Part shown: piece by piece, positions 11,464-46,400 of the stretch
Layout of the letters: each line of letters begins with the position of its first letter
Position numbering within the stretch: the first letter of the stretch is position 1
NCBI GenBank assembly: GCA_017410585.1
Contig: JAFQQM010000016.1
Span: 1-64,000, forward strand
Reading direction: 5' to 3'
Origin: Clostridia bacterium
Lineage (GTDB): Bacteria > Bacillota > Clostridia > Oscillospirales > Acutalibacteraceae
Length of the DNA stretch: 64,000 nucleotides
Made by a program: the position numbers and the translations under genes
The notes under the pieces: generated by a model
Databases searched by the model: none
What the model was told of the DNA's origin: nothing
Seen by the model: only the letters and a program-made list of their open reading frames with translations

Positions 11464-11464
11464 T

Positions 11465-12811: not shown

Positions 12812-12845
12812 AAAAATCCTTCGGGTCGCACCCGAAGGATTTTTG
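12811..12845. terminator. Bidirectional terminator
   Basis: AAAATCCTTCGGGT and ACCCGAAGGATTTT form a 14-bp stem around CGC between two convergent genes; A and T runs flank both sides. Confidence 0.9.
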
Positions 12846-12848
12846 GCG

Positions 12849-13040: not shown

Positions 13041-13062
13041 GGCAATCACCCTTTCTGTTGGC

Positions 13063-13091
13063 AGTATACCATATTTTTCGGCAAACTGCAA
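13063..13091 (-). promoter_or_regulatory. Promoter of the zinc-ribbon gene
   Basis: On the minus strand TTGCAG (13086-13091), a 17-base spacer and TATACT (13063-13068) lie 22 bases upstream of the GTG start. Confidence 0.7.
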
Positions 13092-13114
13092 CGGCGGCGT
13101 TCTGTATTTTTGAA

Positions 13115-13166
13115 AAAACAACAATTTTGTATAAGAAAACAACAAAAGTGAAATTTGTGCAACAAA
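13115..13166 (+). promoter_or_regulatory. CAACAA direct repeats, possible AraC-type sites
   Basis: CAACAA occurs at 13119, 13140 and 13160, the first two inside identical AAAACAACAA decamers exactly 21 bases apart and the third 20 bases further on. Spacing of about two helical turns is typical of direct-repeat half-sites bound by AraC-family dimers. They end just upstream of the GH27 -35 box, an activator position. The AraC regulator at 16543 is a candidate binder. Confidence 0.45.
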
Positions 13167-13172
13167 GCCCCA

Positions 13173-13201
13173 TTGCACAGCCCGTTTGATTTCGCTATAA
13201 T
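13173..13201 (+). promoter_or_regulatory. Promoter of the alpha-galactosidase gene
   Basis: TTGCAC at 13173-13178, a 17-base spacer and TATAAT at 13196-13201. Confidence 0.7.
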
Positions 13202-13245
13202 AATATTGATATACTGCATCCGTATGCAAAAAAAGGAGAACCGTT

Positions 13246-14391
13246 ATGTTGCAACATACCCCCCCGATGGGCTGGAATACTTGGAATACCTTTGGTCTTT
13301 CGATCAATGAGCAGTTGATTTTGGAATCGGCAAAGACGATGATCGAGACCGGCCTATGTGAAGCCGGTTATAACTACATCGTTATCGACGATGGCTGGCA
13401 ACTCCCGCAACGCGATGAAAACGGTCGCCTTGTTGCCGATCCGGAAAAGTTCCCGCGCGGTATCCGTGCGTTGGCGGATGATCTCCACGCGATGGGATTG
13501 AAACTTGGTATCTACTCCTGTGCCGGTCATCTGACCTGCGGCGGCTATCCGGGCAGCAATTCGTATGAGTTTGAGGATGCCGAGACCTTTGCCGATTGGC
13601 ACATCGATTTCTTGAAATACGATTACTGCTACAAACCGCAACGTGAGCCGGGCGATCAATTGTATCTCCGTATGGCAACGGCGCTGGCCAACTGTGGCCG
13701 CGATATCCTGCTGTCGGCTTGTTCTTGGGGCGCGGACGATACCGCTTTGTGGATCAAGTCTACCGGCGCGCATTGCTGGCGCTCGACGGTGGATATCAAC
13801 GACTCGTGGGAGTCGATCTGCCGCTTGGCTAAGGAGCAGAAGGAACTGCAAAAATACAACGGTCTCGGTTGCTTCAACGATATGGATATGTTGGTAGTCG
13901 GTATGAACGGCCAAGGCAACGTCGGTCTCGGCGGATGCAGTTACATCCAGTACCGCACCCACTTCTCGCTGTGGGCGTTTCTCGGTTCTCCGCTCATGAT
14001 CGGTTGCGATATCCGTTCGATGACGCCGGAGACCGCCGCGATCCTCAAAAACCGTGAGTTGATCGCCATCAATCAAGATCCGGCTTATCGCCAGCCGTTC
14101 TCTATCGGCGGCAGTTTCAACTTTGAATGCGGCGATAACGCCGAAAGTTTCGTCTGGGCGAAACTGTTGGAAAACGGCGATTTCGCCATCGGTTGCTTCA
14201 ACTTCAGCGACAGCCCGCGTAATATGTATTTCACCCTCTCCGACCTGTCGCTGGCGCGCTTCTGCGGTCGCAAACTGGTGATGACCGATCTGTGGACCGG
14301 TGAGACCTGCGAGACGGTGGATGCCCGCTTTATGACCAAAGTGGACGCCTGCGATTGCCGCGTGTACCGCGCCAAGATCGTTAAGGAATGA
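13246..14391 (+). CDS. Alpha-galactosidase-like glycosidase, GH27
   Basis: Retaining GH27 enzyme of 381 residues that removes alpha-linked terminal galactose (some members act on beta-L-arabinopyranose). The N-terminus PPMGWNTWNTF is the family hallmark. The nucleophile is Asp126 in FLKYDYC. The acid/base is Asp183 in RSTVDINDSW, by alignment with the human enzyme's RNFADIDDSW. The TIM barrel is followed by a C-terminal beta domain of about 90 residues. There is no signal peptide, so it works in the cytoplasm on imported oligosaccharides. The start ATG follows AAAAGGAG. It sits next to a GH78-like gene and the AraC regulator, which places it in the glycan locus. It has its own promoter, possible activator sites and a terminator. 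Confidence 0.93.
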   Translation: MLQHTPPMGWNTWNTFGLSINEQLILESAKTMIETGLCEAGYNYIVIDDGWQLPQRDENGRLVADPEKFPRGIRALADDLHAMGLKLGIYSCAGHLTCGGYPGSNSYEFEDAETFADWHIDFLKYDYCYKPQREPGDQLYLRMATALANCGRDILLSACSWGADDTALWIKSTGAHCWRSTVDINDSWESICRLAKEQKELQKYNGLGCFNDMDMLVVGMNGQGNVGLGGCSYIQYRTHFSLWAFLGSPLMIGCDIRSMTPETAAILKNRELIAINQDPAYRQPFSIGGSFNFECGDNAESFVWAKLLENGDFAIGCFNFSDSPRNMYFTLSDLSLARFCGRKLVMTDLWTGETCETVDARFMTKVDACDCRVYRAKIVKE

Positions 14392-16542: not shown

Positions 16543-17409
16543 TCAGTGTGATCCGAGGCACAGCGTATCGCTGTCCTCGGTGAGGAAGGTCTGCCGGTAT
16601 TGGCTGGGGGATTGGCAATACTGCGCTGTAAACAGACGCGAAAAACTGGAGAATGATTGGAAACCGACGCTTTCGGCGATCTGTCCGATGGGGAAATCCG
16701 TTTCGGTCAGCAGATACCGCGCTTTATCCAGACGTAGTCGGGTGAGATATTCTTTCGGCGAGATCCCCACTTCGCTCTTGAATAGGCGGTAGAAATAACT
16801 GCGCTCCAACGCCACCAACTTGGCCATATCCAGCACGGTGATGGGATCGGCATAATGGAAATCCAGATAGTCGATGACTTTTTGAACGTCGGCCCGCAAC
16901 GGACGTCCTTTTCGCTCGTTTTCGCCTTGGTAATGATCCGCAAAGATAAGCAACATCTTCAGCAGTTGCGAAATGGCGTACATATCCGCATTGGCAGGGG
17001 AGGAGGATAAAACCTGCGTCGTTTCGCTCACCAGATCGTATAAGGTGTCGTCATCGATGTGGGTGACGTAACTGCTGCCAAATGCCGTTCGGTTGATATA
17101 CTGTTCGGCGGCTGAGCCGTTAAACGCGAAGAAACAATATCCCCAAGGGTCTTTCTTATCAGCGGAATAGACCACCGTTTCCCCCGGACGGATAAGGAAG
17201 GCGTCGCCGACACCCAACTGATGCTGTTTGTTGCCGACCGTGTAGATCCCGCGCCCGCTGGTGACGTAATGGATCAGGAAAAACGATTTAACGACCGGAC
17301 CGTTGGAAGTGCCCGGTGCGCAGGCATCGGTACCGCTGTGGCACAGATTGAGATACTCGTTTTGGAAATCCAAGGAAATAAAACTGAAAGAAGTCGGTGC
17401 TGTTAACAT
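16543..17409 (-). CDS. AraC-family transcriptional regulator
   Basis: A 288-residue regulator. Residues 1-150 form a cupin-type sugar-sensing domain (LIHYVTSGRGIYTVGNKQ, then GDAFLIRPGETVVY). Residues 185-280 hold two helix-turn-helix motifs of the AraC type, with the family ending IGQIAESVGFQSFSSFSRLFT...SPSQYR. The start is the ATG behind GGAGG at 17409; longer readings run into the divergent control region. It is divergent from the 17636 operon and leads the GH78-like gene, so it is the likely local regulator, probably an activator responding to a sugar. CAACAA-type repeats before GH27 and in the divergent region are candidate sites. Confidence 0.95.
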   Translation of the reverse strand: MLTAPTSFSFISLDFQNEYLNLCHSGTDACAPGTSNGPVVKSFFLIHYVTSGRGIYTVGNKQHQLGVGDAFLIRPGETVVYSADKKDPWGYCFFAFNGSAAEQYINRTAFGSSYVTHIDDDTLYDLVSETTQVLSSSPANADMYAISQLLKMLLIFADHYQGENERKGRPLRADVQKVIDYLDFHYADPITVLDMAKLVALERSYFYRLFKSEVGISPKEYLTRLRLDKARYLLTETDFPIGQIAESVGFQSFSSFSRLFTAQYCQSPSQYRQTFLTEDSDTLCLGSH

Positions 17410-17514
17410 AAAAACCTCCGAAAAGTCACATTTGCGGATAAAGCAACATCTTACGGCAATTGCGGAAAAATTGATGACAATGTAAAATAAAGATATGAAA
17501 AGTGCCTCGATTTG

Positions 17515-17542
17515 TTGATTTTGTTCAAATTCTGCGTATAGT
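17515..17542 (+). promoter_or_regulatory. Candidate promoter of the large glycan operon
   Basis: TTGATT at 17515-17520, a 16-base spacer and TATAGT at 17537-17542 in the divergent region between araC and the 17636 gene. A TTGTTG core at 17512, CAACAA on the minus strand, overlaps the -35 and may be a regulator site. I found no clear araC promoter. Confidence 0.5.
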
Positions 17543-17635
17543 ATATCGCGGTGATTCGGGTTTGTCAAGTGTGAAATCAAATGGTTGAAGGCACATTTTT
17601 GGTAATTGCTGGGCAAAAGAAAGGGGACGATCGGT

Positions 17636-20600
17636 GTGAAACGCATCTTAGCGATGGTTTTGGCTGTAGTTATGATAGTGGCATTATTGCCTGCGTGTAA
17701 CGATACGAAGAAGGAAGGGGCAACGATGGAACTGGGAATGCAAAATGCGATGGCCTCCTTCGGCAATTCTCCGATCGCCGGTGTCAAAACGGCCGAGCCG
17801 AAGGATCTGAGCATCAAGGGCGATTCGTCGGTTCAGACCGTTTCGGTGTTGGTCGGTGATAACGACAGCGAGTATACCGCCCGCGTGCTTCGCGGCCACG
17901 GTAGCGAGATGTCTTTCTCCATTGACGGTGTCACACCGAACAAGCCGACCATGATCGAGATCGAGGAGATCCACCTTCGCCGTGACGACGCGATCGCGTA
18001 TACCGTCTACGTTAACGATACCGAGGTGTACGGCCGCACCTACGCGCCAATCGCTGATGGCCCCAACCACGTGTTCTTTGATATTCCGGCTGACCTCGTA
18101 AAAAAAGACAGCCTGAAGATCCGTATCGTCAACAAGACCGATTCGCTGGTGCGTATCCGCCGCGTGTGGGCGATCAGCGATCCGGCTGTGCTGGCGAAGG
18201 ATCAGGGTCTCGAAAAGAAAATGGACGTTGTGCTGATGCTCAACGAATTGCCCAACAATCTCAATTACGATTACTTAAAGCAACTGGTCAACAGTTACAA
18301 GTGCAGTGATATGTATAACGTCGGCCTCTGCTGGGAGATCAACTACCTGCAGTGGGGTAAGATCCGCACCGAAGCGTGGCTGGATAACGTGATCAACGCT
18401 TCCATCCAGACCGGTGCGCCGCTGTACCTCGGTATTAACTCTTGGTGGGCGGGTACGCCTTCGGGTATGGACGGTCAGGGCGGTGCTTGGCAGGATGCGC
18501 AGTACCAGCAGATCACCTACGATCCCAACAATGCAGACGGCCGCGGCAACTGGCAGTTGTCCTCGCCAAATGAGTTTTCGGATACGCCGTGGCTCTCGAT
18601 GAATAACGACTATTACAATGAGACCCGCAAACAGCGTATCAAGGAGACGGTCTCCTACCTGCAACAGCGTACCGCCGAACTGGCTTTGGCGGGTCAGTCG
18701 TTGCCGCCCATCCACCTCTATACCGAAAACGAGCCGTACTACTGGCCGATCAACTGGACGCAGTACGATTTCGAGAAGAACCCCAACGGTGTCGGTGATT
18801 TCTCGCAATGGGTGATCGAAGATGCCGCAAAAGACGGCATCACCCTCGATCCGACCGACGGCTTGAGCAAGGAAGAAGCCTTCTGGATGTACCGCAATCT
18901 CCACACCTACATTTCGGATGTCGGTAACGCGATGGCAGACGGCCTCGGCTATAATTACATTATTGTTGAAGATGGCGAGGTCACCTACCCGAGCGAACAG
19001 ATCGTCAGCGATTCCTATTCTCACACCCCGATCCACCCGATCTATCCCAACTGGGACGAATGCCAGCGCGCTTGGGAAAACCACGTGCTGGATTCCATCC
19101 ACTTCGGCGGTGAATGGTCGGTCTATCTGGATGCCGATTCCAGCCGTTCGCTGGATTACCTGCTGGCTTACGGTTCCTACGCCAACATCAACGCCGAACG
19201 TGCCGGCTTCCCCGGTGGCTTCGATAGCACCGACTTCCGCGTGCTGTCCCAGTGCTATGCGTACGGTCTGGAAGGCGTGGTCATTTATAACGTGCTGGCG
19301 GATACCGACCAGAAAAACGTCATTGACGAATCCACCGTCAGCGATACCAAGATGGAGGTCCGCTACTACGAGACCGATGCCATCTATGAAAGCGACTTCT
19401 CCAAGAAGACCGCTTACAGCATCAACAGCACGCTGACCGGCATCTCCAATTTCCGCTGGGACGGTGTCTCCATCGTGCCGAGCAACGCGGAAGGCGGCAC
19501 GCTGACCTACAAGATCAAAAACGCTAAAGAATACGCCACCGGCCTGCGCGTGTCGGTTGCCGGTGCTTTTGCCGAGGATGGCGGCCGTCTGGAGATTCTG
19601 GCCGGTTCGTCGGTTGACTCGCTGAAATCGGTCGGCGTGTTCGACGGCGCCACCCAAAACGTTGAAATTGCCCCGTCCTTCTACGAAGGCGGCGACACGG
19701 CCTATGTCCGCGTTCGTGTGTACGGTGAGAATTTCACCACGGCGCAGATGGCGGGGCTGTCGATCGCCAAGGTCGGTATCTATCGTACCGGCAGTGGCAA
19801 CGGTTGCACCGACGGCAGTATCTACACCTACGCGGAAAACCGTGTCCGTAGCCAGATCGTCGCCGGTCGTGCCGACGTGGAAAACCTCTTTGCCAAGTAT
19901 ATGAAGCGTGTCGGCGGCGAACTGACCACCGACCGCCAGAAAGAACTGTACAAGGCGGCCTACGAACTGTATCAGAAGCACGCCTACGGCGAAGCCTTTG
20001 ATGCCATCTCGCAGGCGATCAGCCAGTTGCTCCCCGCCACCTTCGTGGTTTCGGGTCACGGTCAACTGGGTGAATATCCGGTGGAGATCGCGGTGGATTC
20101 CTCTGCGAAGGTCACCGTCTGCCTGAAGGAAGTGTCGGATGAAGCGGTCCGCTTTACGCTGTCTGCCAGTTCGGATACCGGTGCGACCGTCTCCCTGCTG
20201 ACCGACAGCGGCAAATGGTCGCTTACGCAGGCGGATAACGGCGATTACGTTATCGCCAAGGGCGACACCGCCGCCGCCGATGGCAAGGTCAGTTTTCAGG
20301 TGGAACTGGACGAGCGTATTGCCAAGGAGATCCCCTCCGAATTTGAGGCGCGCTTTCTTGCTGGTAACAGCACCAACGTGACCTTGATGTCGCAGGATAC
20401 GCGTGTCCACGATTGGTGCTACAGCACCGAGATCCTGATGAGCAGTGACGCCGTGGTCTATCGCGGTAAGGACGGCACCGCCAAAGAAAAGATGACCGCT
20501 TGTACGGTCGCCGAACTGAAGGAAGGCGACTACCTGCAGGTCAAACTCAATGAATACGGTCGTATCGTCGAACTGTATGCGTGGTACGGTCAGATGACCG

Positions 20601-20860
20601 GCACGGTGGTCAAGGTAGAGGAGATGTCCCTCCACGGTACGGTGTCCAACCCGTTTGTGACGGTCAAAGCCGCCGACGGTACCACCAAACGCTTCGAGAT
20701 CGGTTATGAATGCCTGCTTCATTTCGCCGGCGCTACCGGCGAGATGGGTAAAATTGCGTTGGTTGAATCGGTCGGCTTGAAGGAAGGACAGCAGATCACC
20801 GTGACCTACTGTCCGTATGAGGTGAACGAGCGTATCCGTGCGATGGAGATCACCGATTAA
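17636..20860 (+). CDS. Lipoprotein with glycosidase-like core of unrecognised family
   Basis: Predicted surface lipoprotein of 1074 residues with a LPAC lipobox (Cys21). Residues 60-190 form a beta-sandwich. Residues 195-540 look like a TIM-barrel hydrolase with LCWEINYLQWG, LYLGINSWW, the motif LYTENEPYYWP (Glu366) and IHFGGEW (Glu493). Asn-Glu-Pro followed about 127 residues later by a second conserved Glu is the pattern of clan GH-A acid/base and nucleophile residues. The same core recurs at 43481 with Glu1422 and Glu1552, 130 apart. A helical stretch and beta domains follow, including GQLGEYPVE. The GTG start is set by AAAGGGGAC and by the position of the signal peptide. It opens the main operon. 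I cannot assign a CAZy family; hydrolase activity is inferred. Confidence 0.75.
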   Translation: MKRILAMVLAVVMIVALLPACNDTKKEGATMELGMQNAMASFGNSPIAGVKTAEPKDLSIKGDSSVQTVSVLVGDNDSEYTARVLRGHGSEMSFSIDGVTPNKPTMIEIEEIHLRRDDAIAYTVYVNDTEVYGRTYAPIADGPNHVFFDIPADLVKKDSLKIRIVNKTDSLVRIRRVWAISDPAVLAKDQGLEKKMDVVLMLNELPNNLNYDYLKQLVNSYKCSDMYNVGLCWEINYLQWGKIRTEAWLDNVINASIQTGAPLYLGINSWWAGTPSGMDGQGGAWQDAQYQQITYDPNNADGRGNWQLSSPNEFSDTPWLSMNNDYYNETRKQRIKETVSYLQQRTAELALAGQSLPPIHLYTENEPYYWPINWTQYDFEKNPNGVGDFSQWVIEDAAKDGITLDPTDGLSKEEAFWMYRNLHTYISDVGNAMADGLGYNYIIVEDGEVTYPSEQIVSDSYSHTPIHPIYPNWDECQRAWENHVLDSIHFGGEWSVYLDADSSRSLDYLLAYGSYANINAERAGFPGGFDSTDFRVLSQCYAYGLEGVVIYNVLADTDQKNVIDESTVSDTKMEVRYYETDAIYESDFSKKTAYSINSTLTGISNFRWDGVSIVPSNAEGGTLTYKIKNAKEYATGLRVSVAGAFAEDGGRLEILAGSSVDSLKSVGVFDGATQNVEIAPSFYEGGDTAYVRVRVYGENFTTAQMAGLSIAKVGIYRTGSGNGCTDGSIYTYAENRVRSQIVAGRADVENLFAKYMKRVGGELTTDRQKELYKAAYELYQKHAYGEAFDAISQAISQLLPATFVVSGHGQLGEYPVEIAVDSSAKVTVCLKEVSDEAVRFTLSASSDTGATVSLLTDSGKWSLTQADNGDYVIAKGDTAAADGKVSFQVELDERIAKEIPSEFEARFLAGNSTNVTLMSQDTRVHDWCYSTEILMSSDAVVYRGKDGTAKEKMTACTVAELKEGDYLQVKLNEYGRIVELYAWYGQMTGTVVKVEEMSLHGTVSNPFVTVKAADGTTKRFEIGYECLLHFAGATGEMGKIALVESVGLKEGQQITVTYCPYEVNERIRAMEITD

Positions 20861-20983: not shown

Positions 20984-23371
20984 ATGAAAAAAGCAAAAAT
21001 CTTTTTATCCCTGTTGCTTTGCGTTGCCGTGATGGCTTCGCTCGTTTCGGCGCTCGGCCTGACCGGCTCGGCGGCGGAGAGCGTGTCCGTTACCGTTGAC
21101 CTGAGCAATCTGGAAGCCAACGGCGAAAAAGACGTTGCCGCCGAGGCTATCAAGAATGCCGGTGCTTATGAGGTGAACAACCTGAAGTTGGAAAACACCT
21201 ATGCCGGTACGGCTCATCCGGGCGGCTACGCCGGTGAAGGTTATCTGGTTGCCAAACTGGAAGCCGGTGCGGGTAAGGTGTTCGCTTCCGACGTGGTTGC
21301 GGACCTGACCTACTGGCTGGCCGATGTGGTGAACTCCGAAGTCGGCGTTCACGGCTGGATTAAGTTGGAAGTCTCCACCGATAACGTGACCTACACCGAG
21401 ATCGCGAAAGACGCGCAGGGCAGCGGTACCGAGTATTCGGATACCTCCCGCCACAACGTGCAACTTCCGCTGACCGGCACCAAAGGCGCGTCCGTTGCTT
21501 ACGTGAAGGTCACTATGCAGCATTGGGGCAGCCCGTACTGCGGCGGTATCCAGAAGCTCATTGTCTCCGGCGAAGCCGAGGCTGACCCGAACGCGGGCGG
21601 CAACGACGACGATCAGCAGGGCGGCGAAGCCACCGGCTCCGCTTCTCTGACCGTTGACCTGAGCGGTATGTCTGCTAACGAAGACAAAGACGCTTCTGCC
21701 ACCGCGATCAAGAACGCCGGTGCGATGGAAGTCAACAACCTGCAGTTGGAAAACAGTTACTTCGGTTTCGCTCATCCGAGCGGGTATGCCGGTGCCGGTT
21801 ATATCATCGTCAAGTTGGAAGCCGGTGAAGGCAAGGTGTTTGCCTCCGCACCGGTGGTCGACCTGACCTACTGGCTGGCGGTCAACGACCCGCAGGGTTA
21901 TCTGACCGTGGAAGGCTCGCTGGATAACGAGACCTACTATGAGTTCTACAAGGATTCGACCGGCGCGGGCGGGCAGTATCAGCTCAGCGCCCAGATCAAC
22001 AAGCAGATCACGCTGACCGGTGCCGAAGGCGCGGCGGTCGCGTATGCCAAGATCACGGTCGAGCACTGGGGTGCTCCGCACTGCGGTGGTATCCAGAAGA
22101 TCGTGTTCAACGGTGCGACGATGGCTGACCCGAACGCGGGCGGCAATGATGACGATGAGGATGACGACCAGCAGGGCGGCGAGGATACGCCGGTCGAGAC
22201 GGTCGACATCACCAACGAACTGGACTTCACCACGCTGACCAAGGCCTCCGATGCGACCGATGCCATCCTCGGCTTGGGCGCGATTGCCGCCAACGGTCTG
22301 TGCATTGAAGACTGCTATTATCCGTTTGCTGCCCCGCAGGGCGGCTATGCCCCTGCTTATTACATCCAGACGCTGTCTGCCGGTACCGATAAGGTGTTTG
22401 CGGAAGCGCCGGTGTTTACCATCAACTACCGTATGTCCACCACCGACCCGTTGAGCAAGATCAAGATCGAGGCTTCGATCGACGGTGAGACTTACTATGA
22501 GTTTGCCACCATCAGCGAGGGTCTGGGCGATTCCTACACGCTGGATTGCTTGGGTACCAAGACCATCGTGCTGGAAGGTGCCGAGGGTGCTTCGGTCGTC
22601 TACGTCAAGGTGACTGCGGAACGCTTCGGTGGCCACGATGCGGCCGGTATCGATTCCTCGGTGATCGACGCGAAAGTTCCGGCGGACGTTGCCGGCGACG
22701 ACGATGAGGATGAAGATCAGGGTGAAGACATCCCGACCACCTTTATCACCGAAACGCTCGATTTCAGCAAGTTGGGCAAGAACCTCGGTGACGCTTCCGC
22801 TTCGGTCATCGCAGCCGGTGCGGTGGATGCCAAGGGTGTCTGCGTTGAGGATTGCTACTCCAAGTTCCTCGCTCCGAAGGACGGTTTTGCGCCTGCCTAT
22901 TACATCCAGAAACTGTCGGCCGGCGAAGGCAAGACCTTCGTTTCCGCCCCGACCTTCACCATCAACTACCGTATGGCCGGTTCTTCGCCGCTGAGCACCA
23001 TCAAGATCGAGGCTTCGATCGACGGTGAGACCTACTACGAGTTTGCCACCATCAGCGAGGATCTGGGTGCTTCCTTCACGCTGGATTGCAAGGGTAGCAA
23101 GATCATCACGCTGGACGGCGCCGAGGGTGCTTCCGAAGTGTACGTCAAGGTGACCATGGAGCGCTTTGGCTCGTACGACAGCGCCGGTGTGGAATCCTCC
23201 ACCATCCGTGCGGAGATTCCGGGCGAACCGGACGATGATAAGCAGGACGAGGATGACAAGAGCCCGTCCACCGGCGAGTCGGCCCTGCCGATCGCATTCG
23301 CCGCTGTGGCCCTGCTGTCTGCGATGGCCCTGCTGTTCGTTTCCACCCGCAAGACCGCTCTTAACAAGTAA
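20984..23371 (+). CDS. Wall-anchored protein with four beta modules
   Basis: A 795-residue surface protein. The signal peptide ends near SALGLTGSAA. Four repeats of about 150-180 residues follow, each with the pattern VDLS/LDFT, a DAxxxxGAxxxxNL segment, a central LTYW or INYR strand, and a closing YVKVTxExxG strand. Acidic linkers such as GGNDDDEDDDQQGG separate them. The C-terminus is SPSTGE (760-765), a hydrophobic helix and a basic tail, consistent with a sortase signal of the variant type seen in Ruminococcaceae. The module is also in the proteins at 23444 and 43481. Its size and fold pattern suggest a carbohydrate-binding beta-sandwich, but I recognise no named family. AAAAGGAGAGG precedes the ATG. 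Confidence 0.75.
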   Translation: MKKAKIFLSLLLCVAVMASLVSALGLTGSAAESVSVTVDLSNLEANGEKDVAAEAIKNAGAYEVNNLKLENTYAGTAHPGGYAGEGYLVAKLEAGAGKVFASDVVADLTYWLADVVNSEVGVHGWIKLEVSTDNVTYTEIAKDAQGSGTEYSDTSRHNVQLPLTGTKGASVAYVKVTMQHWGSPYCGGIQKLIVSGEAEADPNAGGNDDDQQGGEATGSASLTVDLSGMSANEDKDASATAIKNAGAMEVNNLQLENSYFGFAHPSGYAGAGYIIVKLEAGEGKVFASAPVVDLTYWLAVNDPQGYLTVEGSLDNETYYEFYKDSTGAGGQYQLSAQINKQITLTGAEGAAVAYAKITVEHWGAPHCGGIQKIVFNGATMADPNAGGNDDDEDDDQQGGEDTPVETVDITNELDFTTLTKASDATDAILGLGAIAANGLCIEDCYYPFAAPQGGYAPAYYIQTLSAGTDKVFAEAPVFTINYRMSTTDPLSKIKIEASIDGETYYEFATISEGLGDSYTLDCLGTKTIVLEGAEGASVVYVKVTAERFGGHDAAGIDSSVIDAKVPADVAGDDDEDEDQGEDIPTTFITETLDFSKLGKNLGDASASVIAAGAVDAKGVCVEDCYSKFLAPKDGFAPAYYIQKLSAGEGKTFVSAPTFTINYRMAGSSPLSTIKIEASIDGETYYEFATISEDLGASFTLDCKGSKIITLDGAEGASEVYVKVTMERFGSYDSAGVESSTIRAEIPGEPDDDKQDEDDKSPSTGESALPIAFAAVALLSAMALLFVSTRKTALNK

Positions 23372-23389
23372 TTACCTTTTATGAACCGC

Positions 23390-23417
23390 CCCGCCGAGCC
23401 CATAGGGGGTCGGCGGG
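23390..23417 (+). other. Intercistronic hairpin
   Basis: CCCGCCGA (23390-23397) pairs with TCGGCGGG (23410-23417), in the 72 bases between two surface-protein genes. The tail is only moderately T-rich, so partial termination or mRNA stabilisation is likely. Confidence 0.5.
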
Positions 23418-23443
23418 ACGTTTCTTCCCAAGGAGGAAAATCT

Positions 23444-25411
23444 ATGCTACAGTTTGCAAAACGCGCCGGAAGTCTGGCGCTGGCTGTATTGCTTCTTTTG
23501 ATGCTGTTGCCGACCTTTGCTGTGGGCGCGGCCAAGAGCGAGGCCGGCACGCTGGTCGAGACGACCTTCGATTTCTCCGCGATGGAGTCGATCGAAGAGG
23601 GGCGCAACGACGAGGAAAAGGCCGCTTCCAAGGCGAAGGTCAAGGAAAAACTGGAAGCCGCCGGTCTGGTCGAGGTCGAAAATCTGTTCCTGCGCGGTAA
23701 CTGGGGCCCGATCGTTAATCCGGGCGGCTTCAACGGTCAGGGCTGGTATATCCAAAAGGGTGTCCCCGCATCCGGCGAGACCATTAAAAATGCCACCTTG
23801 AGCCTGACCTACTGGGTCGCTACCGGTGACCCGCAGGGTTACATTGAGGTGTGGGCTTCTGCCGATAGCAAGAAGTACGAGAAAGTGTTCGAGCAGAAGG
23901 AAGGCAACGGTGACCCGTATGACACCAACACTCGTCAGGACCGTTCGATCAGCCTGCCGGTCAAATCCGGTCAGAAAGAGATCTACGTCAAGGTCGTGAT
24001 GGAACACTTTACCACCTATGAGGGTGCGGCGGTGGCTGTCAGCACGCTGGCGATCAACCGTGATCCCAAGTTGTATGAGCCGGTCAAGACCGACAAATCC
24101 CCCGAAGAACTGACGATGGTCAGTGATATGCATTCCTTCAACGCCCTCAAACCGGGCGAAGTCACCGCCGAAGATCTCGGTGCGGTGGAAGAGTTGAATA
24201 TGTTCTTCGGTATTGACGGTGTGCCGCTTTTGTCCCCGCGTAACGGCTACGAGATCGCTTCGGCGACTTGGAAACTGTCGGCGGCGGAAGGGGAACCGCT
24301 CAATGACTGTGTGCTGACGATGGTCGGCCGTACTTGGTGGATCAGCGAAAGCGTGAAAAATGACAACTACCTGAAGGTCTATGCCTCTACCGACGGTAAG
24401 ACCTATACGCTGGTCAAAGAACTTCGTTCCAATGACAATATGGATGATACCCAAAAGACCATCGTGGACGTCACCGACGTGGTCAAAGGCTACGCGCAGG
24501 CATACGTCAAGTTGGAATGGTTGGTCTTTGACAGCCCGCATATCTTCGGTATGCGTTCGGTCACTTTGACCGGTAACACAGCCGGTGTGGACAACTCGGC
24601 CGGTGTGCCGAGCAAGATGCCGGTCAGCAATTCCCAGTGCTTCACTTCGCTGCCGGTCGGCGCTGTTGACAAAGCGGCGGTGGAAGCGGAAAAATCCGGC
24701 AACCTGTATTTCGGCTACAATAAGACCCCGCTGTTGACCGCAACCGAGGCGGGGGAGGATGCCTACGGCATCTGGAAGGTCACCGCGATGGAGGGAGAGA
24801 CCTTCGACGATTGCTGGCTGACGCTGGTGGGCCGTTTCGGCTACGTCGATGAGAGCCTGAAAGATACGTCTTCCATCAAGATCTCGCTGTCGACCGATAA
24901 GGAAAAGTACAACGAGGTCAAGGTCATCACCCCGACCGACGACCAGTCTGACACCCAGAAGATCGCAATCGACCTGTCCAGCCAGACCTACGGCTTGACC
25001 GAGGTCTACGTCAAGGTCTACTGGTCGTCTAAGGACGATCCCTCGGCAATGGGTCTGCGTTCGCTGACGCTGGTCGCCAATGCCGGCGCAGACTACGATG
25101 CCTATACGCCGGAACTGGAAGATCGCGTGATCGGTGACGATGAGATGCCTCCTGTTGAGGATGCGCCGACCGATACTCCGTCGGATGAGCCCGACAATAA
25201 CGACGGTCAGCAGACCGATTCGGATGTCGATGCACCGAAGGATGAGGATCAGCCGAAAAACGGTTGGTTGATTTGGGTCATTATTGCGGCGGCTGTCGTG
25301 GTGGTAGCCGGCGGTGGTTTCTGTGTATGGTGGTTCCTGCTTCGCAAAAAGGCAGCCCCCGCCGAGGAGACGGAAGAAGCACCGACCGAGACTGACGGCG
25401 AAGCCGAATAA
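23444..25411 (+). CDS. Membrane-anchored protein with three beta modules
   Basis: A 655-residue exported protein. The signal peptide (LALAVLLLLMLLPTFAVGAA) is followed by three modules of about 150 residues related to those in the 20984 protein: a FDFSAM or FNALK opening, a central LSLTYWV or LTMVGR strand, and a closing YVKVVMEH or YVKLEW strand. An acidic, proline-rich linker leads to one C-terminal transmembrane helix (WLIWVIIAAAVVVVAGG) and a charged cytoplasmic tail rich in Glu and Pro. Unlike its neighbour it is held by the membrane helix, not by a sortase motif. The start is the ATG behind AAGGAGG; an ATG at 23381 would put a hydrophilic stretch before the signal. A glycan-binding role is inferred. 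Confidence 0.75.
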   Translation: MLQFAKRAGSLALAVLLLLMLLPTFAVGAAKSEAGTLVETTFDFSAMESIEEGRNDEEKAASKAKVKEKLEAAGLVEVENLFLRGNWGPIVNPGGFNGQGWYIQKGVPASGETIKNATLSLTYWVATGDPQGYIEVWASADSKKYEKVFEQKEGNGDPYDTNTRQDRSISLPVKSGQKEIYVKVVMEHFTTYEGAAVAVSTLAINRDPKLYEPVKTDKSPEELTMVSDMHSFNALKPGEVTAEDLGAVEELNMFFGIDGVPLLSPRNGYEIASATWKLSAAEGEPLNDCVLTMVGRTWWISESVKNDNYLKVYASTDGKTYTLVKELRSNDNMDDTQKTIVDVTDVVKGYAQAYVKLEWLVFDSPHIFGMRSVTLTGNTAGVDNSAGVPSKMPVSNSQCFTSLPVGAVDKAAVEAEKSGNLYFGYNKTPLLTATEAGEDAYGIWKVTAMEGETFDDCWLTLVGRFGYVDESLKDTSSIKISLSTDKEKYNEVKVITPTDDQSDTQKIAIDLSSQTYGLTEVYVKVYWSSKDDPSAMGLRSLTLVANAGADYDAYTPELEDRVIGDDEMPPVEDAPTDTPSDEPDNNDGQQTDSDVDAPKDEDQPKNGWLIWVIIAAAVVVVAGGGFCVWWFLLRKKAAPAEETEEAPTETDGEAE

Positions 25412-38193: not shown

Positions 38194-39981
38194 ATGCGTT
38201 ATCGACTTTTTCGCATAGCAGTCATCGCTTTGGCTATGTCGTTGCTTGTCGCTTGCACCGCACAGCCGACCGATTCGGAGAAAGGAAGTACCAATATGAC
38301 GACGACAACCGGCTCTTCTGCCGGCGGTAACGCCGGCACGACCGGCAGTACCGGTCAATCCAGCACCACCAAACCGTCTTCGACTTCGCAGACGACCGGT
38401 ACGACCGGTACGACCGGGACGGTCACCAAACCGACCGTCCCGCCGGCAAAATATGCCGTAAAACCGTTTGCTTATCCCGATGCGGCGGTCAAAACGCTGG
38501 AACAGCGTTCTCTGTCGCTCGGTGCTTTCTGTGCCCGTGCGGCCGGCGATAGCAACTACGTCGGTAACCGCCACTATACCGGTACGCATATCGTGGTCTC
38601 GCCCTATTTTACCGCTTCGGTGGACGGCTTGACCCTGCCGGTGTACGCTACGCCGGTGTACGTGGCGACCGGTAATCAAGGCGTTTTGCATTCCTACGCC
38701 TCGGTGGACATTGCTTTCGGCAATCACGATGCCGTGTTATTGCAGTTGAATGCGTCGGTAGACGTCGATTCGGTGGACGTGTTTTCGGCCAGTGACGCAA
38801 CGGCGTCGCATAGCGGCCGCAACATCCGTCTGTCGGTCAGCAAACACGGCGTGTATACGTTGGTGCTGAACGGTGACCAGCAACACGCCGTCACGGTGTT
38901 TGTCCGCGAATACGAGGACGAGGCGGCGGCCATCGCCGCTTACCGTGCCGCCTACGGCAAGGAAAACGTCATCGTTTACGAGCCGGGTCTGCATGATATC
39001 GATCACGTTACCCTGCCAAACAGCCGTATGGTGCTGTATTTAAAGGCAGGCGCCATTTTGTTGCCCCGTCACACGATAGATATTCTAAACGACGAGACGG
39101 CGGCGAACGCCGCAGAGCCTTTTGCCAAGGAGAGTAACGGTATCGGTCTAAACCGATTCCCTGTTATTAACGGTTTTGGCTGTTCCGATCTGACCATCGC
39201 CGGTCGCGGTACGGTGGATATGACCCAATTGGATTGGCACGAACGCCGCGGCGTGGTGTTTACGATGTGTGACCGCGTTCGTATGGACGGTGTCATTTTG
39301 GTCAACCCCTGTGAATGGGCGTTTATTACCTACCGTTGCAGTAACGTGACCGTCACCCAAAGTGCGGTGTTCGGTTACCGCACCAACAGCGATGCCTTTG
39401 CCATCTGCAATTCGACCGACGTGCAGGTAAGCGATTGCTTTGCCCGCACCGGTGACGATATGTTTGAGGTCAAAACTCTCGGTGGTGTCGAAGGTGCGGT
39501 CAGCCGCGATATCACCTTCAGCCGCTGTCAGGCGTGGGGCAGTAAAGCCCGCTGTTACGGCATTATCGGTGAAATGGAGAAGGATATCAGCCGTGTTACC
39601 TTTGAGGACAGTTGGGTCATCTTCCGTGACGCGGTGTGGGATAACAACCGCATCGGTTCGCTGGTGGTCCTGCGTGAGACCGGCAACGGCAAGGTAAGCG
39701 ATATCACCTTCCGCAATATTCAGATCTATTACGATCGCGGCCGTGCGATCAACTGCGGCAACTATTCCGCCGATCTGCAAAACAGCCGGATCACCGGCAT
39801 CACCTTTGAGAATATCCGCTACAAGAGCGGGATGAATTCGCAACTGCGCCTCAATAACGGTGCCGGCAACAGCCTGCAGATCCTGCTGAAAAACGTGTAT
39901 GCCGACGGCACCCGCTTAAACAGATCGAATTTTAACAGTTATTTCTATTGTGACAGAGACGGTCTGGCAACGGTCCAATGA
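38194..39981 (+). CDS. Lipoprotein with GH28-like right-handed beta-helix
   Basis: Predicted surface lipoprotein of 595 residues with lipobox LVAC (Cys21) and a Thr/Gly/Ser-rich linker (about 30-85). An N-terminal beta domain leads to a parallel beta-helix (from about 270) with polygalacturonase-like turns: NSDAFAICNSTDV and TGDDMFEVK. GH28 enzymes use an Asn-x-Asp, an Asp-Asp, a Gly-His-Gly and an Arg-Ile-Lys. Here the first two are present. The third position reads SKARCYGIIGE and I find no RIK. It may be a divergent GH28, a related helix glycosidase, or an inactive binder. It lies 11 bases after the second permease pair and its stop overlaps the next gene's upstream ATG. Confidence 0.75.
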   Translation: MRYRLFRIAVIALAMSLLVACTAQPTDSEKGSTNMTTTTGSSAGGNAGTTGSTGQSSTTKPSSTSQTTGTTGTTGTVTKPTVPPAKYAVKPFAYPDAAVKTLEQRSLSLGAFCARAAGDSNYVGNRHYTGTHIVVSPYFTASVDGLTLPVYATPVYVATGNQGVLHSYASVDIAFGNHDAVLLQLNASVDVDSVDVFSASDATASHSGRNIRLSVSKHGVYTLVLNGDQQHAVTVFVREYEDEAAAIAAYRAAYGKENVIVYEPGLHDIDHVTLPNSRMVLYLKAGAILLPRHTIDILNDETAANAAEPFAKESNGIGLNRFPVINGFGCSDLTIAGRGTVDMTQLDWHERRGVVFTMCDRVRMDGVILVNPCEWAFITYRCSNVTVTQSAVFGYRTNSDAFAICNSTDVQVSDCFARTGDDMFEVKTLGGVEGAVSRDITFSRCQAWGSKARCYGIIGEMEKDISRVTFEDSWVIFRDAVWDNNRIGSLVVLRETGNGKVSDITFRNIQIYYDRGRAINCGNYSADLQNSRITGITFENIRYKSGMNSQLRLNNGAGNSLQILLKNVYADGTRLNRSNFNSYFYCDRDGLATVQ

Positions 39982-39998
39982 CCGAAGGGAGAGAGCCT

Positions 39999-41912
39999 AT
40001 GCTTTCAAAACAACTTTGGCGTGTGTCGGGAAATTCGCTGGTGTGGCGGCCGGAAGGGGCCCACAGCGACGATATCGAAATGAGCGGTCTGTACGTCGAC
40101 GTGATCGTCGATTATGGCGTGGACGAAGCTGGCGCTTTGCGCTTGCAACGCCACGCCTACTTTCCTACCCTTCGTACCATCCCAAACGACACCCACGCCA
40201 CCTATTCGGTCACCTTGCCGCAAGAGTCCGCACCGCGGTTGCTTTGTGACGGCTCGCCGGTGACCGAATATCCGCAGACCTTTACGTTAGACGGTCTGCT
40301 GACCGTCTGCAGTCGGACGAATGCCGGTGTGCAGGTGACCCGTTGTTTGTTTCCCGCTTCGGCGGCCCGTTGTGCACTGGAGCAGGTGACCGTCACCGCC
40401 TCACAAACGGTGACACTGTCGGTATCGTTGCCAGCCGAAACGGTGGTCGATCGCCGCTTCGGCACCAAAGGCGTGTACGTAGCCAAGTTGCGTCATACCG
40501 CTCCGCCGTCGTTTACGTTGCAGGCGGGGGAGAGCCTGACCTATACGGTCGCGCTGTCCGCCGATCCCGCCAATTCGCCGGCACCATTGCCGGATGCCGA
40601 AACGGAGCGGGAATCTCGCCTGCGGCGGATCGCCGCTTTGTGCGATCGCTCGCTGGTGCTGGATACCGGCATCCCCGAACTGGACGTGATGATCCGCTTT
40701 GCCAAACTACGGGCAGGGGAGAGCATCTTTGAAACGCTGTCCGGCAAATTTCACAGCCCCGGCGGCCGCGCTTACTACGCCGCCATCTGGTGTAACGACC
40801 AGATCGAATACGCCGGCCCGCATTTTGCCATGACCGGCGATCCCGTTGCTATTGAAGCGTCTTTAAACGCTTACCGCGCGTATATTCCGTTTATGTCGGA
40901 TGACTATCATCCGTTGCCTTGCTCCATCATTGCGGAAGGCTTGGATATCTGGAACGGCGCCGGTGACCGCGGCGATGCGGCTATGTATCTCTACGGTGCT
41001 TCGCTGTTCTGCCTATATCTGGGGGATCGCGCGGTAGCGGAAGAACTCTATCCCGCTATCCGGTGGTGCGCCGAATACTGCGACCGCCGCCGCTTGCCGG
41101 AGGGGGTCATCGGCTCGGATACCGATGAATTGGAAGGGCGTTTCCCCACCGACCGCATCGCCAATCTGTCCACTTCGGCGCTGTGCTACGGCGGTCTGCT
41201 GACCGCCGCCAAACTGGCGGAGTCGTTGGAGGATCCCGCCACAGCCGCCCTTTATCGCCAACGCGCCGCCGCGCTGGAACAGGCGATCGAGACCTATTTC
41301 GGCGCAAACCTGCACGGGTTTGACACCTACCGTTATTCGCGGGGGATCGAGACGTTGCGTGCGTGGATCTGTCTGCCGCTTTGCGTCGGTATCACCACCC
41401 GCCTTCAAGGGACGATGAATGCGATGCTGTCACCGTATTTGTGGACCGAAGAGGGGATGCTCACTTGTGAGTTGTCGGAGGAAAACCGCAACGACACCAT
41501 CTGGGATCGTTCGACGCTGTACGGCTTCAAATGTGCGTTTATGAACGGGCAGGGTGACCGCGTGATACAACCGCTGTTGCGCTATTGCCGTAAACGCCTG
41601 CTGTGCGACCGCGTCCCGTATGCGGTGGAGGCGTATCCGGAAGGCGGAAAACGCCATCTCTCCGGTGAAAGCGCCCTGCTTGTCCGTGTCATTACCGAGG
41701 GTCTGCTCGGCATCCGTCCGGTCGGTTTAAACGCCTTTTCCTTTGTGCCGCAACTGCCCGCCGGCCTGCCGCATATCCGCTTGTCTTATCTGTATATGGC
41801 GGGTCATTGCTGGGATATCTGCGTTGAGTCGGAAGGCTGGACGGTCACCGTCGACGGTAAGACGGTCGCTACCGGTAAGACCGATGGAGACCGCGTGACC
41901 GTTTCCGTATAA
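39999..41912 (+). CDS. Cytoplasmic (alpha/alpha)6-type glycosidase, family uncertain
   Basis: A 637-residue soluble protein with no signal peptide. The first 210 residues are a beta-sandwich; the rest looks like a six-hairpin barrel, with AYYAAIWCNDQIEYAGPHF, FMSDDYHPLPCSIIAEGLDIWNGAGDRGD and YSRGIETLRAWICLPLC as helix-pair landmarks. Asp and Glu pairs in the NDQIEY and GAGDRGDAAM regions are possible catalytic residues. The fold occurs in GH15, GH63, GH78, GH94 and others; I cannot choose one. The start at 39999 follows AAGGGAGAGAG. It ends the large operon, probably acting on imported oligosaccharides, and a terminator follows. Confidence 0.65.
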   Translation: MLSKQLWRVSGNSLVWRPEGAHSDDIEMSGLYVDVIVDYGVDEAGALRLQRHAYFPTLRTIPNDTHATYSVTLPQESAPRLLCDGSPVTEYPQTFTLDGLLTVCSRTNAGVQVTRCLFPASAARCALEQVTVTASQTVTLSVSLPAETVVDRRFGTKGVYVAKLRHTAPPSFTLQAGESLTYTVALSADPANSPAPLPDAETERESRLRRIAALCDRSLVLDTGIPELDVMIRFAKLRAGESIFETLSGKFHSPGGRAYYAAIWCNDQIEYAGPHFAMTGDPVAIEASLNAYRAYIPFMSDDYHPLPCSIIAEGLDIWNGAGDRGDAAMYLYGASLFCLYLGDRAVAEELYPAIRWCAEYCDRRRLPEGVIGSDTDELEGRFPTDRIANLSTSALCYGGLLTAAKLAESLEDPATAALYRQRAAALEQAIETYFGANLHGFDTYRYSRGIETLRAWICLPLCVGITTRLQGTMNAMLSPYLWTEEGMLTCELSEENRNDTIWDRSTLYGFKCAFMNGQGDRVIQPLLRYCRKRLLCDRVPYAVEAYPEGGKRHLSGESALLVRVITEGLLGIRPVGLNAFSFVPQLPAGLPHIRLSYLYMAGHCWDICVESEGWTVTVDGKTVATGKTDGDRVTVSV

Positions 41913-42221: not shown

Positions 42222-43310
42222 ATGAAGAAGTTGATAGCCGTTTTGCTGACACTGGCGTTGCTTGTCGGTGTGTCGATGCTGCCGGCTTCGGCCGCTGTAG
42301 CACCGCAGGTGTACGTGGATGCACCCGCGCAGGCGCAACCCGGCGAGATCATCGCCGTGTCGCTGTATGTCAACAACGGCAATGAGGTCGTTGGTGGCGT
42401 GGAGGGCACGGTCACCTACGATTCGTCCATGCTGACCTACGTTGGCGTGACGTTGCGTGAGGACGTGGTCCTGATCGGCAACGTGGAGGACGTCACCGTC
42501 CGTCAGACGGAGGATGCCGTTCGTTTTGTCACCGTCTCCAACGTGACCGGCGGCAACCCTGCCGCGGATGCGTGGCTGACGCTCAATTTCCGTGTGGAAG
42601 CCGCTACCGGTTCAGCCGCGGCGGTCGCGGTCGAGGAGATGAAGGTCTCCGATTGGATGGGTGAGGGTTGCCTCGAACTGGGCGCCGGCTATTCGCAGCC
42701 GGAGGATGCCGGTATCGTGCGGATCATCACCGTCGGTACCGACGACCCGATCGACGTACTGGGGGCAACCATTCGCACCGATGGTGCGGGTATCCGCTAT
42801 CAGGCAACCGTCGACTCCGCTTTCCATGATACGCTGACGCTCAAAGAGGCCGGCATCGTGATGCTGCCTACCGTCTTGCTGTATGAGGATCAGGACCTCA
42901 CCAAAGAGACGGTCGGCCGCCGTGGTGCCAAGCCGGCGATCGCGTATACGACCGATGCGGAAAAACTGTCCCGCATTGCCTCGGGTGAATCGCTGTTCGG
43001 TACGCTGACCAACGGTGTCTCCGGCAACCGTGCCAACGTGCAGATCTCGGCGCGCTCCTATCTGACTTTCAGCGATGGCACCACCGTTTACTACAGCCAT
43101 AACGAAGGCAGTAATATCGTTGCCGGCGAGGCTGTCCGCTCGGTCGTTAAGGTGGCGCAGACCATCGCCAACAACGAGATCGCGGCGGCGAACGGTGCGC
43201 TGAATAACCACGGCCTCGGTACCATTCTGACGGCGGAAACGCTGACCGAGTCCGAGGTGCAGACGCTGATCGATTTCTGTTGCGATAACATCGCCTACCT
43301 GCAAAAGTAA
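42222..43310 (+). CDS. Secreted cohesin-domain protein 2
   Basis: A 362-residue secreted protein paralogous to the 8771 product. The signal peptide ends near LPASAAVAPQ. Residues 25-170 are a cohesin-like module (VVGGVEGTVTYDSSMLTYVG, then DAWLTLNFRV). Residues 180-362 are the same second domain, here opening GATIRTDGAGIRYQAT. No anchor is visible. It leads an operon with small peptide 2 and a protein bearing an internal dockerin, so the cohesin and dockerin may be partners. The start is the ATG behind AAGGGTGG. The next gene's ribosome site overlaps this gene's stop. Confidence 0.75.
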   Translation: MKKLIAVLLTLALLVGVSMLPASAAVAPQVYVDAPAQAQPGEIIAVSLYVNNGNEVVGGVEGTVTYDSSMLTYVGVTLREDVVLIGNVEDVTVRQTEDAVRFVTVSNVTGGNPAADAWLTLNFRVEAATGSAAAVAVEEMKVSDWMGEGCLELGAGYSQPEDAGIVRIITVGTDDPIDVLGATIRTDGAGIRYQATVDSAFHDTLTLKEAGIVMLPTVLLYEDQDLTKETVGRRGAKPAIAYTTDAEKLSRIASGESLFGTLTNGVSGNRANVQISARSYLTFSDGTTVYYSHNEGSNIVAGEAVRSVVKVAQTIANNEIAAANGALNNHGLGTILTAETLTESEVQTLIDFCCDNIAYLQK

Positions 43311-43323: not shown

Positions 43324-43467
43324 ATGAGAAAGTACAATACGCCCGAGTTGGAACTGTTCCGGCTCACAGCCGCCATCTATACCGTTTCGGAAGAAGCGGA
43401 ATACGATGACAATTGGGACGACTACATGGAAGAGGATGCTAACGGCACCTCGGACGATGCCAAGTGA
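43324..43467 (+). CDS. Small acidic peptide 2 (Y-x-x-P-E family)
   Basis: A 47-residue peptide starting MRKYNTPELEL, with A-I-Y-T-V at 17-21 and a very acidic second half containing tryptophan (DDNWDDYMEED). It is one of three paralogues (9932, 62052) sharing Tyr, P-E-[ILV], Ala17 and Thr20. AAGGAGG overlaps the cohesin-2 stop, and the peptide's own TGA is within the AAGGAG of the giant protein behind it, so it lies in a tightly coupled three-gene operon. No export signal. The function is unknown; RiPP precursor-like or accessory roles are possible. Confidence 0.75.
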   Translation: MRKYNTPELELFRLTAAIYTVSEEAEYDDNWDDYMEEDANGTSDDAK

Positions 43468-43480
43468 AGGAGTGAATGAT

Positions 43481-46400
43481 ATGAAAAAGCATATAAAGAT
43501 CGCGCTTTCGCTGATACTGACGCTGGCAATGCTGATCTCGCTGGTTTCGGTCGTGTCGTTGCCGACCGCCGCCGCCAATGAGGTCACCATCCCCACCGCT
43601 AACGAAGGCGGCTCGGTCACCACTTCGGTCGATTTTTCCGGTCTCACCGCGTCCGGCGCGAACGTGCAGGCGGATGAAACGGTCGATGCGGTTACCGGCA
43701 TTTACGATTCCTTTAACGTCGAACTGCAAAGCCACGACTGGGGTACCGTGCTGACCAGCCCTGGTGCCCAGTGGGGTTACGTGACCATTGCGGTCAGCGC
43801 ACCGGCCGGTGAGGTCATCTCGTCCATCACCGACGTGCAGGTCGACTACATCTGCAACGATTCCTCCTCCAGCTCGATCATCTTCGAGTTCTCGGTGGAC
43901 GGTGTCAACTATACGGCGATCGGCTCTGCTTCCTCGCAGGACGGCGCCGGCTACGTCAAGCGCAATTTCTCGCTGGCCAATCTCGGCATCAGCGAATATC
44001 CGGTAGGTAACACGGGTGAAGCGGCCCGCGTGACCACCGTGTATATCCGCGCCAAGGTCAACCGTAACGGCGGTCCGTGGGCGGCTTCCATCTATGCGAT
44101 GGGCGTTTCGGTCGCCACCCGTCCGGTCGATTTCACCACGCTGGAATCGATGGTGGACTTCACCACCTTGACCGCGACCAACTACTCGGGCGATACCTTT
44201 GATGATGCGACCATCAAGGACGCCGGCGCACAAGACGTGTACAAACTGCAGTTGCACAACGGCCCTGTTCACAACCGAACGGTGGCGATGGGCTACGGCG
44301 GCAACAATCAGGCGCAGATCACCCTGCGCATTGCGGCGCCGGAAGGTATGATCATCGACCGCGTGGACGTCAACGTGGCTTATTGGCTCAACGATACCAA
44401 CGGTTATATCGATATCCAGTACAGTGTCGACGGTAGCAACTGGGCGTCTCTTACCAAGTTGAGTGCGGACACGTCGCAGAGTGCGGTGGCGGTGTACAGC
44501 AATAATAACATCGACATGGCGGCTCTGGGTCTTTCCGAACTGTACCTCAAGGTGATGCCCTACCGCGTCGGCGGTCCCATGACCGGCTCGCTGGAAACCG
44601 TTTCGCTGAAGGGTACGGCCGTCCACAATACCGACGTGGATGCTTCGTTGCTGGATTTCAACAAGATGTCCGGTGCGGATAACGCGTCCACCGACTCTGC
44701 CACCATTCTGGCGGATACCGATGCGGTTTCGGTCAACAACCTCCGCCTCGGCGGTTACTACGGCACCTGCGCCAGTCCGAGCGGCTATTCGGGTGAAGGC
44801 AGTTTCGTGCAGAAGTTTGACTTAAACGGCAAACTCTATCCCAATCTGACTTATTATCTGGAATACTGGTTCGACGGTACGGTTGCGGAGGGCAACGTAT
44901 CCACGATGTACGTGGATATCTCCACCGACAATGCCAACTGGACCACCATCTACACCCCCACGGCGAAGACCGATCGGTTGCAGAGCGTGAGTTTCTCGCT
45001 GTCCGCCTACAACTCGGCTTCGACGGTGTATATCCGCGTCCGTATGCTCAACTACGGCGGCTACCACGTAGCGGCGGTCGCTCGTTCGCACGTCTACGGT
45101 AGCGGTCTGATCATCGCGCCCGATCTGGAGAACACGGTCGACTTCACCACCGGCCCGTCTTACGGTGCTAACGACGTGGACAACTCGACCAAACTGATGG
45201 CCGATCACGCCAATATCCATACTGCCGCCGGTCTGACCACCGACTCGGTCAACGGCAACGTTTCCGCTACCGCCAAGGGCGGTTATACCGGCCTGAATTG
45301 CTACTACGTGCAGAAACTGGCCACCGGCAACGAGGATAAGGTCTTTGCCGCCGATCCGATCTTGGAACTGCAATACGGTATGGAAAACGGTATGATCACC
45401 GTGCAGGTCTCGGTGGATGGGGGCAAGGCCTACCTGCAGGTCGCGCAGTTGACCGCGGCCACCGCCAAGACCACCACCGAGATCCCGCTGACCGGTTATG
45501 CCGGCTATTCCGAGATCTACGTGAAGATCATCATCACGCGTTATGCTGGTCCCTCCGGTGCGTACGTGCTGTCTTCGACGCTGAGTGCCGACGTGGAGGA
45601 GAAGGTGGCCTTCCCGTTTAGCCACACCATCGATTTCACCCAGATCACCACCGCAACGGAAGATCGCGCCACAGCGGCTCAGTTGATGATGGAGCAGGGT
45701 GCTTACGCGGTGGATAACCTCATTACTTGGTCTAACTACCGTATGATTGCCGCTTCGCAGGGAAATGGCGGTGCCGGTTACTACATCCACCGTTACGATG
45801 CCGGTGACGGTTTCGTGTTCGAGACCGATCCGGTGTTTACGCTGGATTACCGTTTGGCGGCGTCCACCCCGCAGGGCTATATTAAGGTAGAGGCCTCTTT
45901 TGACGGCGATCCGTACGTGTTGCTTACCACCTTGACCGAGGCGACCAGCAACGATGCCTACGACGGCAAGTACAAGACGGTCGAAATTCCGCTGACCGGT
46001 GCGACCAACTATCAGGTCGTTGATATCAAGGTGACGATGGAGCATTGGGGCGCGCCCTCCTGCGCGGCTGTGGAGAAATCCACCGTGGCCGGTGCGGCCA
46101 AGCGTTACACGGCCGGTAGTTTCCAGTCGGAACTTGATTTCTCGGCAATGAACCGCGATGAGACCGCCTCTTCGGCTGTCAGCACCATCCTCTCCGAGGG
46201 TGCGTTTGATGCCTCCAATGTCTACCTCGGCGGTAACAACGGCATCGTTGCCACGCCGGGCGGTAACATGGGCGAGGGTTACGTGACCCTCAAACTCGCC
46301 GCGGCGACCAACGCAGGACTCAGCGACGTGGCTCTGTCGATGGATTACTGGGCGTATAAGCAGGCCGCTACCGCCGGCACCATCAAGGTGTACGTCTCGC

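Follow-up and report, generated by a model that had tools for sequence, protein, structure and literature searches.

A putative glycoside hydrolase family with a predicted clan GH-A-type barrel, encoded twice at one locus of a Clostridia bacterium

Gene content of the locus

The window analysed here is the whole stretch of 64,000 nucleotides at positions 1 to 64,000 (forward strand) of contig JAFQQM010000016.1, from a Clostridia bacterium of the Acutalibacteraceae. It encodes two proteins with a common core, P0001 (the 17636 protein, member 1) and P0002 (the 43406 protein, also numbered 43481, member 2). These two genes and their neighbours are:

13246..14391, + strand: GH27-like alpha-galactosidase, also beside a family gene in L017 and L008
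14437..16509, - strand: alpha-L-rhamnosidase-like (GH78-like) protein (Pfam Bac_rhamnosid6H, E 6e-17)
16543..17409, - strand: divergently oriented AraC-type regulator, probably 288 aa like its L017 counterpart (ORF 16543-17817 of the list is too long)
17636..20860, + strand: family member 1 (P0001), lipoprotein, 1074 aa (ORF call, model)
20984..25411, + strand: two surface proteins with F5/8C-like repeats; the one at 20984-23371 ends in PSTGE and a membrane helix
25426..38182, + strand: sugar ABC importers, NHL, Yip1 and DUF5696 proteins, syntenic in relatives
38194..41912, + strand: GH28-like (pectin) protein and MGH1-like GH protein
42222..43310, + strand: cohesin-domain protein adjoining the P0002 gene, just upstream (Pfam Cohesin, E 7e-8; likely start ATG 42222)
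43406..49498, + strand: family member 2 (P0002), 2030 aa (ORF and alignment to member 1)

Much of this gene order is found again in L017, L019 and L021, around both the window's clade and the sister clade described below. The neighbours (GH27, GH78-like and GH28-like genes and ABC sugar importers) suggest that the substrate may be a pectin-type plant polysaccharide; GH28 together with rhamnosidase would indicate pectin, perhaps rhamnogalacturonan.

Two separate genes of the window (31665-33752), one NHL-repeat and one Yip1, correspond to a single fused 699-aa ORF in L021 (15986-18085), where the fusion lies beside DUF5696 and ABC permease genes in a conserved import neighbourhood; no mention of DUF5696 was found in the literature searched. 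The solute-binding domain of the 965-aa protein at 26903-29800 is confined to its C-terminal half, and the first ca. 570 residues have no Pfam match; the protein is conserved in L017 (81%) and L021 (50%). One 1348-aa ORF (53036-57082) runs from the large-chain domains of carbamoyl-phosphate synthase into a diaminopimelate epimerase domain, and a valyl-tRNA synthetase-like ORF (338-3025) has a rubredoxin-like motif match at residues 440-464.

Two related proteins, one a lipoprotein and one with a dockerin

The P0001 ORF has a GTG start with an AAAGGGG-type ribosome site upstream, and the signal peptide of its product ends in LLPAC. This is followed by a jelly-roll, a barrel, a beta domain, a helical hairpin and C-terminal beta domains. 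P0002 begins with repeated F5/8C-like domains and a dockerin-like segment and continues with the jelly-roll, barrel and C-terminal domains as in P0001, without the extra beta domain that P0001 has at ca. residues 577-728.

The two proteins align over 568 columns at 41% identity (E 1e-141) and over a second stretch of 294 columns at 29% identity (E 1e-26). The motif LYTENEPYYWP starts at residue 361 in P0001 and 1442 in P0002, and IHFGGE at 488 and 1572, so that the glutamates of the two motifs are 127 and 130 residues apart. The beta-sandwich that precedes the core is also common to both, as is a motif that follows it:

20060..20080, + strand: GQLGEYP motif, past the helical hairpin, in both proteins (pairwise alignment, relatives)

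Because of the two alignments and the near-equal spacing of both motifs, P0001 and P0002 are, judged by their sequences, products of common ancestry and not of chance. The first-pass annotation had described a barrel-like region with both motifs in two proteins, the same flanking domains from the beta-sandwich through GQLGEYP, and one lipoprotein and one dockerin copy; the alignments and spacings agree with the first two points, and the LLPAC signal peptide and the following segment of P0002 with the third.

46604..46756, + strand: dockerin type I-like segment of P0002, residues 1067-1117 (two D-x-N-x-D repeats)

Two calcium-binding-type D-x-N-x-D...D repeats, as in the dockerins of cellulosomal enzymes, occur at residues 1067 and 1098 of P0002 and at 443 and 474 of L034, a protein from a sister genome with the same order of CBM repeat, dockerin and core. 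The Pfam Dockerin_1 match of P0002 (E 0.085) is under the cut-off. The cohesin gene and the dockerin-bearing gene stand side by side and may form a small pair of the cellulosome type in this 2.1 Mb genome.

Distribution of the family

Beyond the window, 45 further relatives were found (47 members in all), in gut Clostridia, Armatimonadota and three actinobacteria. Single-sequence scans of genome contigs and viral contigs with P0001 gave no match; alignments of two and four sequences retrieved relatives where the single sequence had not, the four-sequence search reaching Clostridia from roe deer and sheep guts, an Armatimonadetes MAG and Actinopolymorpha. Among genomes close to the host the family is uncommon: of 200 in the same taxonomic family, the window's own is the single one with a member, and of 394 in the host's order two more have it. 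Members occur in 30 of the 291 Armatimonadota genomes searched, including all 12 of the 12 genomes of one Armatimonadota family, and in three genomes of an actinobacterial order.

Two sets of matches were not counted as relatives. L011-L016 and L036 were weak early matches, mainly to the lipoprotein signal region, and L059-L067 have only the N-terminal jelly-roll in common with the family. The latter are actinobacterial proteins of 1200-1400 aa in which this jelly-roll is joined to a different remainder.

Sequence comparison with known families

Sequence searches of Pfam, NCBIfam, PHROGs and the PDB with P0001 and P0002 gave no matching family, and the N-terminal part of P0002 had no match in a sequence search of the PDB. 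When the 47 aligned members were compared with Pfam (2025) and NCBIfam (2026) at E 0.1, only single chance-level rows were returned; Pfam GH35 (PF01301) was matched by none of the 47 at this threshold, and GH42 (PF02449) by no member. The 47-sequence profile found no chain under E 0.2 in the PDB (2026). GH164 was not retrieved by sequence in the PDB search, and GH14 gave neither a Pfam nor a PDB sequence match, its likeness being one of fold only. The first-pass annotation had recognised no family, which is borne out for sequence searches of Pfam, NCBIfam and the PDB.

Profile-profile alignment (hhalign, local mode) gave non-significant scores against GH42 (E 0.11) and GH35 (E 0.16), while the positive control, GH42 against GH35, gave E 2e-9. 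In these non-significant alignments Glu366 (P0001 numbering) was aligned to the GH35 NE motif, and Glu521 fell beside the GH42 MEST-type motif.

These searches of Pfam, NCBIfam and the PDB set the proteins apart as what is likely a new CAZy family. Several GH families have no Pfam model, and the family might already stand in CAZy with neither a Pfam or NCBIfam model nor a solved structure. This alternative concerns novelty and is compatible with the mechanism favoured below; we think it rather unlikely, given that the 2025 release of Pfam and the 2026 releases of NCBIfam and the PDB give no sequence match. A similar GH-A family, GH148 (EngU), likewise had no family match when it was found, but its motifs are INNEN and VTEYN and it carries a CBM4 as an insert (PMC5725463), as against NEPxYW, GxE and NxE here. 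Sequence comparison thus puts the family outside GH35, GH42 and GH14, and motif comparison outside GH148.

Predicted structure

An AlphaFold model of the jelly-roll and barrel, built from the 47-sequence alignment, has a pLDDT of 85.3 and a pTM of 0.87; an earlier model from 11 sequences was moderate. It comprises two domains:

17810..18178, + strand: N-terminal jelly-roll, ca. residues 59-181, CBM35/CBM51-like (model strands, Foldseek rows)
18221..19291, + strand: (beta/alpha)8 barrel, ca. residues 196-552 (AlphaFold model, GH14/GH35 structural matches)

The barrel strands 1 to 4 are residues 196-201, 227-235, 263-267 and 359-362, and strands 5 to 8 are residues ca. 460-465, 489-493, 515-521 and 547-551. 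VIA-align matched the model to GH14 (Z 22.2, 318 residues, 3.5 A) and GH35 (Z 21.1, 293 residues, 3.2 A), a near tie with GH14 ahead by about 1. A full-length model adds structural matches to GH42, GH164 and GH5, with Z about 17 for GH42 and GH164. In all the families matched in this way, GH5 included, the catalytic carboxylates sit on strands 4 and 7. GH66 proteins, the top Foldseek rows of the first model, were set aside at whole-chain TM-scores of 0.12-0.17. With eight alternating strands and structural matches at Z ca. 20 or more, the model supports a clan GH-A-type barrel. Since neither GH42 nor GH35 scores significantly in profile-profile alignment, the case for clan membership is built on the predicted fold and on residue positions.

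The GH35 proteins compared (beta-galactosidases, a beta-1,2-glucosyltransferase and an exo-glucosaminidase) superimpose on the barrel with Z 19-21 and rmsd 3.2-4.2 A over 290-315 residues. Like the family, they have an NE motif after beta4, a glutamate on beta7 and a carboxylate between the two (Asp326 in Bxy_22780); they are only 9-15% identical to it, the profile comparison is non-significant (E 0.16), and the family has no Pfam GH35 match. GH42 and GH164 also have a GH-A barrel with the acid/base on beta4 and the nucleophile on beta7; the profile comparison with GH42 gave E 0.11. GH14 beta-amylase, highest in Z, resembles the family in its glutamates after beta4 and on beta7 and differs in its 7-11% identity, in having no NEP motif and in acting on alpha-glucan by inversion.

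Conserved glutamates and a proposed mechanism

The family's signature consists of three short motifs, [DE]NEPxYW, GxE and NxE. Each carries a glutamate, and all three glutamates are present in both window proteins:

18716..18748, + strand: LYTENEPYYWP; Glu366 at 18731-18733, predicted acid/base, after beta4 (conservation; strand 4 ends at residue 362)
19097..19114, + strand: IHFGGE; Glu493 at 19112-19114, on beta6, predicted third active-site carboxylate (conservation, strand 6)
19184..19198, + strand: NINAE; Glu521 at 19196-19198, on beta7, predicted nucleophile (conservation, strand 7)
47744..48244, + strand: P0002 equivalents, Glu1447 (47744-47746), Glu1577 (48134-48136) and Glu1613 (48242-48244)

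In the 47-row alignment (P0001 numbering) Glu366 is present in 40 rows and Glu493 in 45, and position 521 is Glu in 45 and Asp in one of the 46 rows with a letter there. Asp388, Gln292, Pro311 and Asn312 are kept in 47 of 47, Tyr369, Trp271 and Asn552 in 46, and Asp279 is also among the positions kept in 45-47 of the 47 rows.

The model places Glu366 past strand 4, Glu493 at the end of strand 6 and Glu521 as the last residue of strand 7. GH164 was placed in clan GH-A by an acid/base on strand 4 and a nucleophile on strand 7 (PMC7105311). Asn365-Glu366 corresponds to the clan's beta4 acid/base, a Glu usually preceded by Asn, and Glu521 would be its beta7 nucleophile by position alone. Because the acid/base and nucleophile of clan GH-A sit on beta4 and beta7, the catalytic pair in this model is likely Glu366 and Glu521, not Glu366 and Glu493. 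The first-pass annotation had assigned a clan GH-A pair and looked to structure prediction for it; the model supports the barrel and puts Glu366 after beta4, whereas Glu493, taken there for the nucleophile, ends beta6.

A pair of Glu366 and Glu493, with Glu521 auxiliary, would instead resemble the beta4/beta6 barrels, e.g. those of clan GH-D. Glu493 does equal Glu521 in conservation, and GH66 and GH31 barrels stand high among the Foldseek rows, albeit with low TM-scores and with the jelly-roll included. Almost all VIA-align rows are GH14, GH35 and other beta4/beta7 families, and the N-E-P surroundings of Glu366 are those usual in GH-A, while the beta4 nucleophile of clan GH-D is an Asp. We regard this pairing as improbable.

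Glu493 is probably a third active-site carboxylate next to the Glu366/Glu521 pair. The GH35 enzyme Bxy_22780 has such a residue, Asp326, between its acid/base Glu190 and nucleophile Glu350, where it may affect their pKa (PMC11739564); it lies 24 residues ahead of the nucleophile, against 28 for Glu493 and Glu521.

The near tie of GH14 and GH35 in Z also bears on stereochemistry. GH14 beta-amylase is an inverting enzyme, and the family could be one of this kind, with Glu366 as acid and Glu521 as base some 10 A apart. This too has a small probability in our judgement, as the N-E-P motif is a signature of retaining GH-A enzymes and the neighbouring genes target pectin-type glycans rather than starch. 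By analogy, the NEP context makes retention of configuration most likely, and an inverting GH14 fits the fold equally well.

Taken together, we consider it probable that P0001 and P0002 act as secreted glycosidases, that their uncharacterised family has a clan GH-A-type barrel, and that they are retaining enzymes with Glu366 and Glu521 as the catalytic pair. Homology, conservation, the predicted fold and the strand positions are what the analysis shows; from these we infer the activity, the pair, the stereochemistry and the substrate. In a double displacement, Glu521 (NxE, end of beta7) would act as nucleophile and Glu366 (NEPxYW, after beta4) as acid/base, and Glu493 (GxE, end of beta6), lying between them, would have a tuning or orienting role. 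The jelly-roll and other beta domains probably bind glycans. The lipoprotein copy would act at the cell surface, and P0002, in which a dockerin and glycan-binding repeats are attached to the core, could dock onto the adjoining cohesin protein.

The family has no name in general annotation libraries; it occurs in gut Clostridia and in about one-tenth of the Armatimonadota genomes searched. Its probable substrates are the cell-wall glycans of plants in the guts of herbivores, and it would close a gap in the account of how pectin-type polysaccharides are degraded.

A clade without Glu366

Six sequences from gut Clostridia (clade B) have MEW, MEH, LEH or MDH in place of NEP, and thus have no Glu at position 366. 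They also have no Trp370. They form a single branch, which has the window's clade as its sister (support 100/100 in the tree), and retain Glu493, Glu521 and an acidic residue (E/D) two positions ahead of 366. Glu366 was lost independently in L046, from the Armatimonadota. In the four-sequence alignment NEP had seemed to have no counterpart outside the window's clade; the 47 sequences overturned this: NEP is the general state, and a single clade is marked by not having it.

The missing Glu366 in these seven sequences counts against the retaining mechanism proposed above. A pseudo-enzyme that binds glycan without catalysis, in clade B if not more widely, would account for the joint loss of Glu366 and Trp370 along one well-supported branch. 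We hold this to be very unlikely, because all three glutamates are kept in the window proteins, and clade B itself retains two of them and the nearby acidic residue. In clade B the acid/base would have been lost or moved with the sugar-import neighbourhood kept, and therefore an altered mechanism or a glycan receptor may be expected there.

As a tentative and somewhat doubtful whole, the data may describe a new clan GH-A family with three near-invariant glutamates in its active site (beta4, beta6 and beta7) and a gut Clostridia clade in which the acid/base was lost or moved and the import neighbourhood retained. Clade B, which lacks the predicted acid/base glutamate, lends itself to a natural test of the role of the third conserved glutamate. 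L022 encodes a tandem pair of members (6668-9976 and 9980-13309) that are 39% identical, both in the clade without Glu366.
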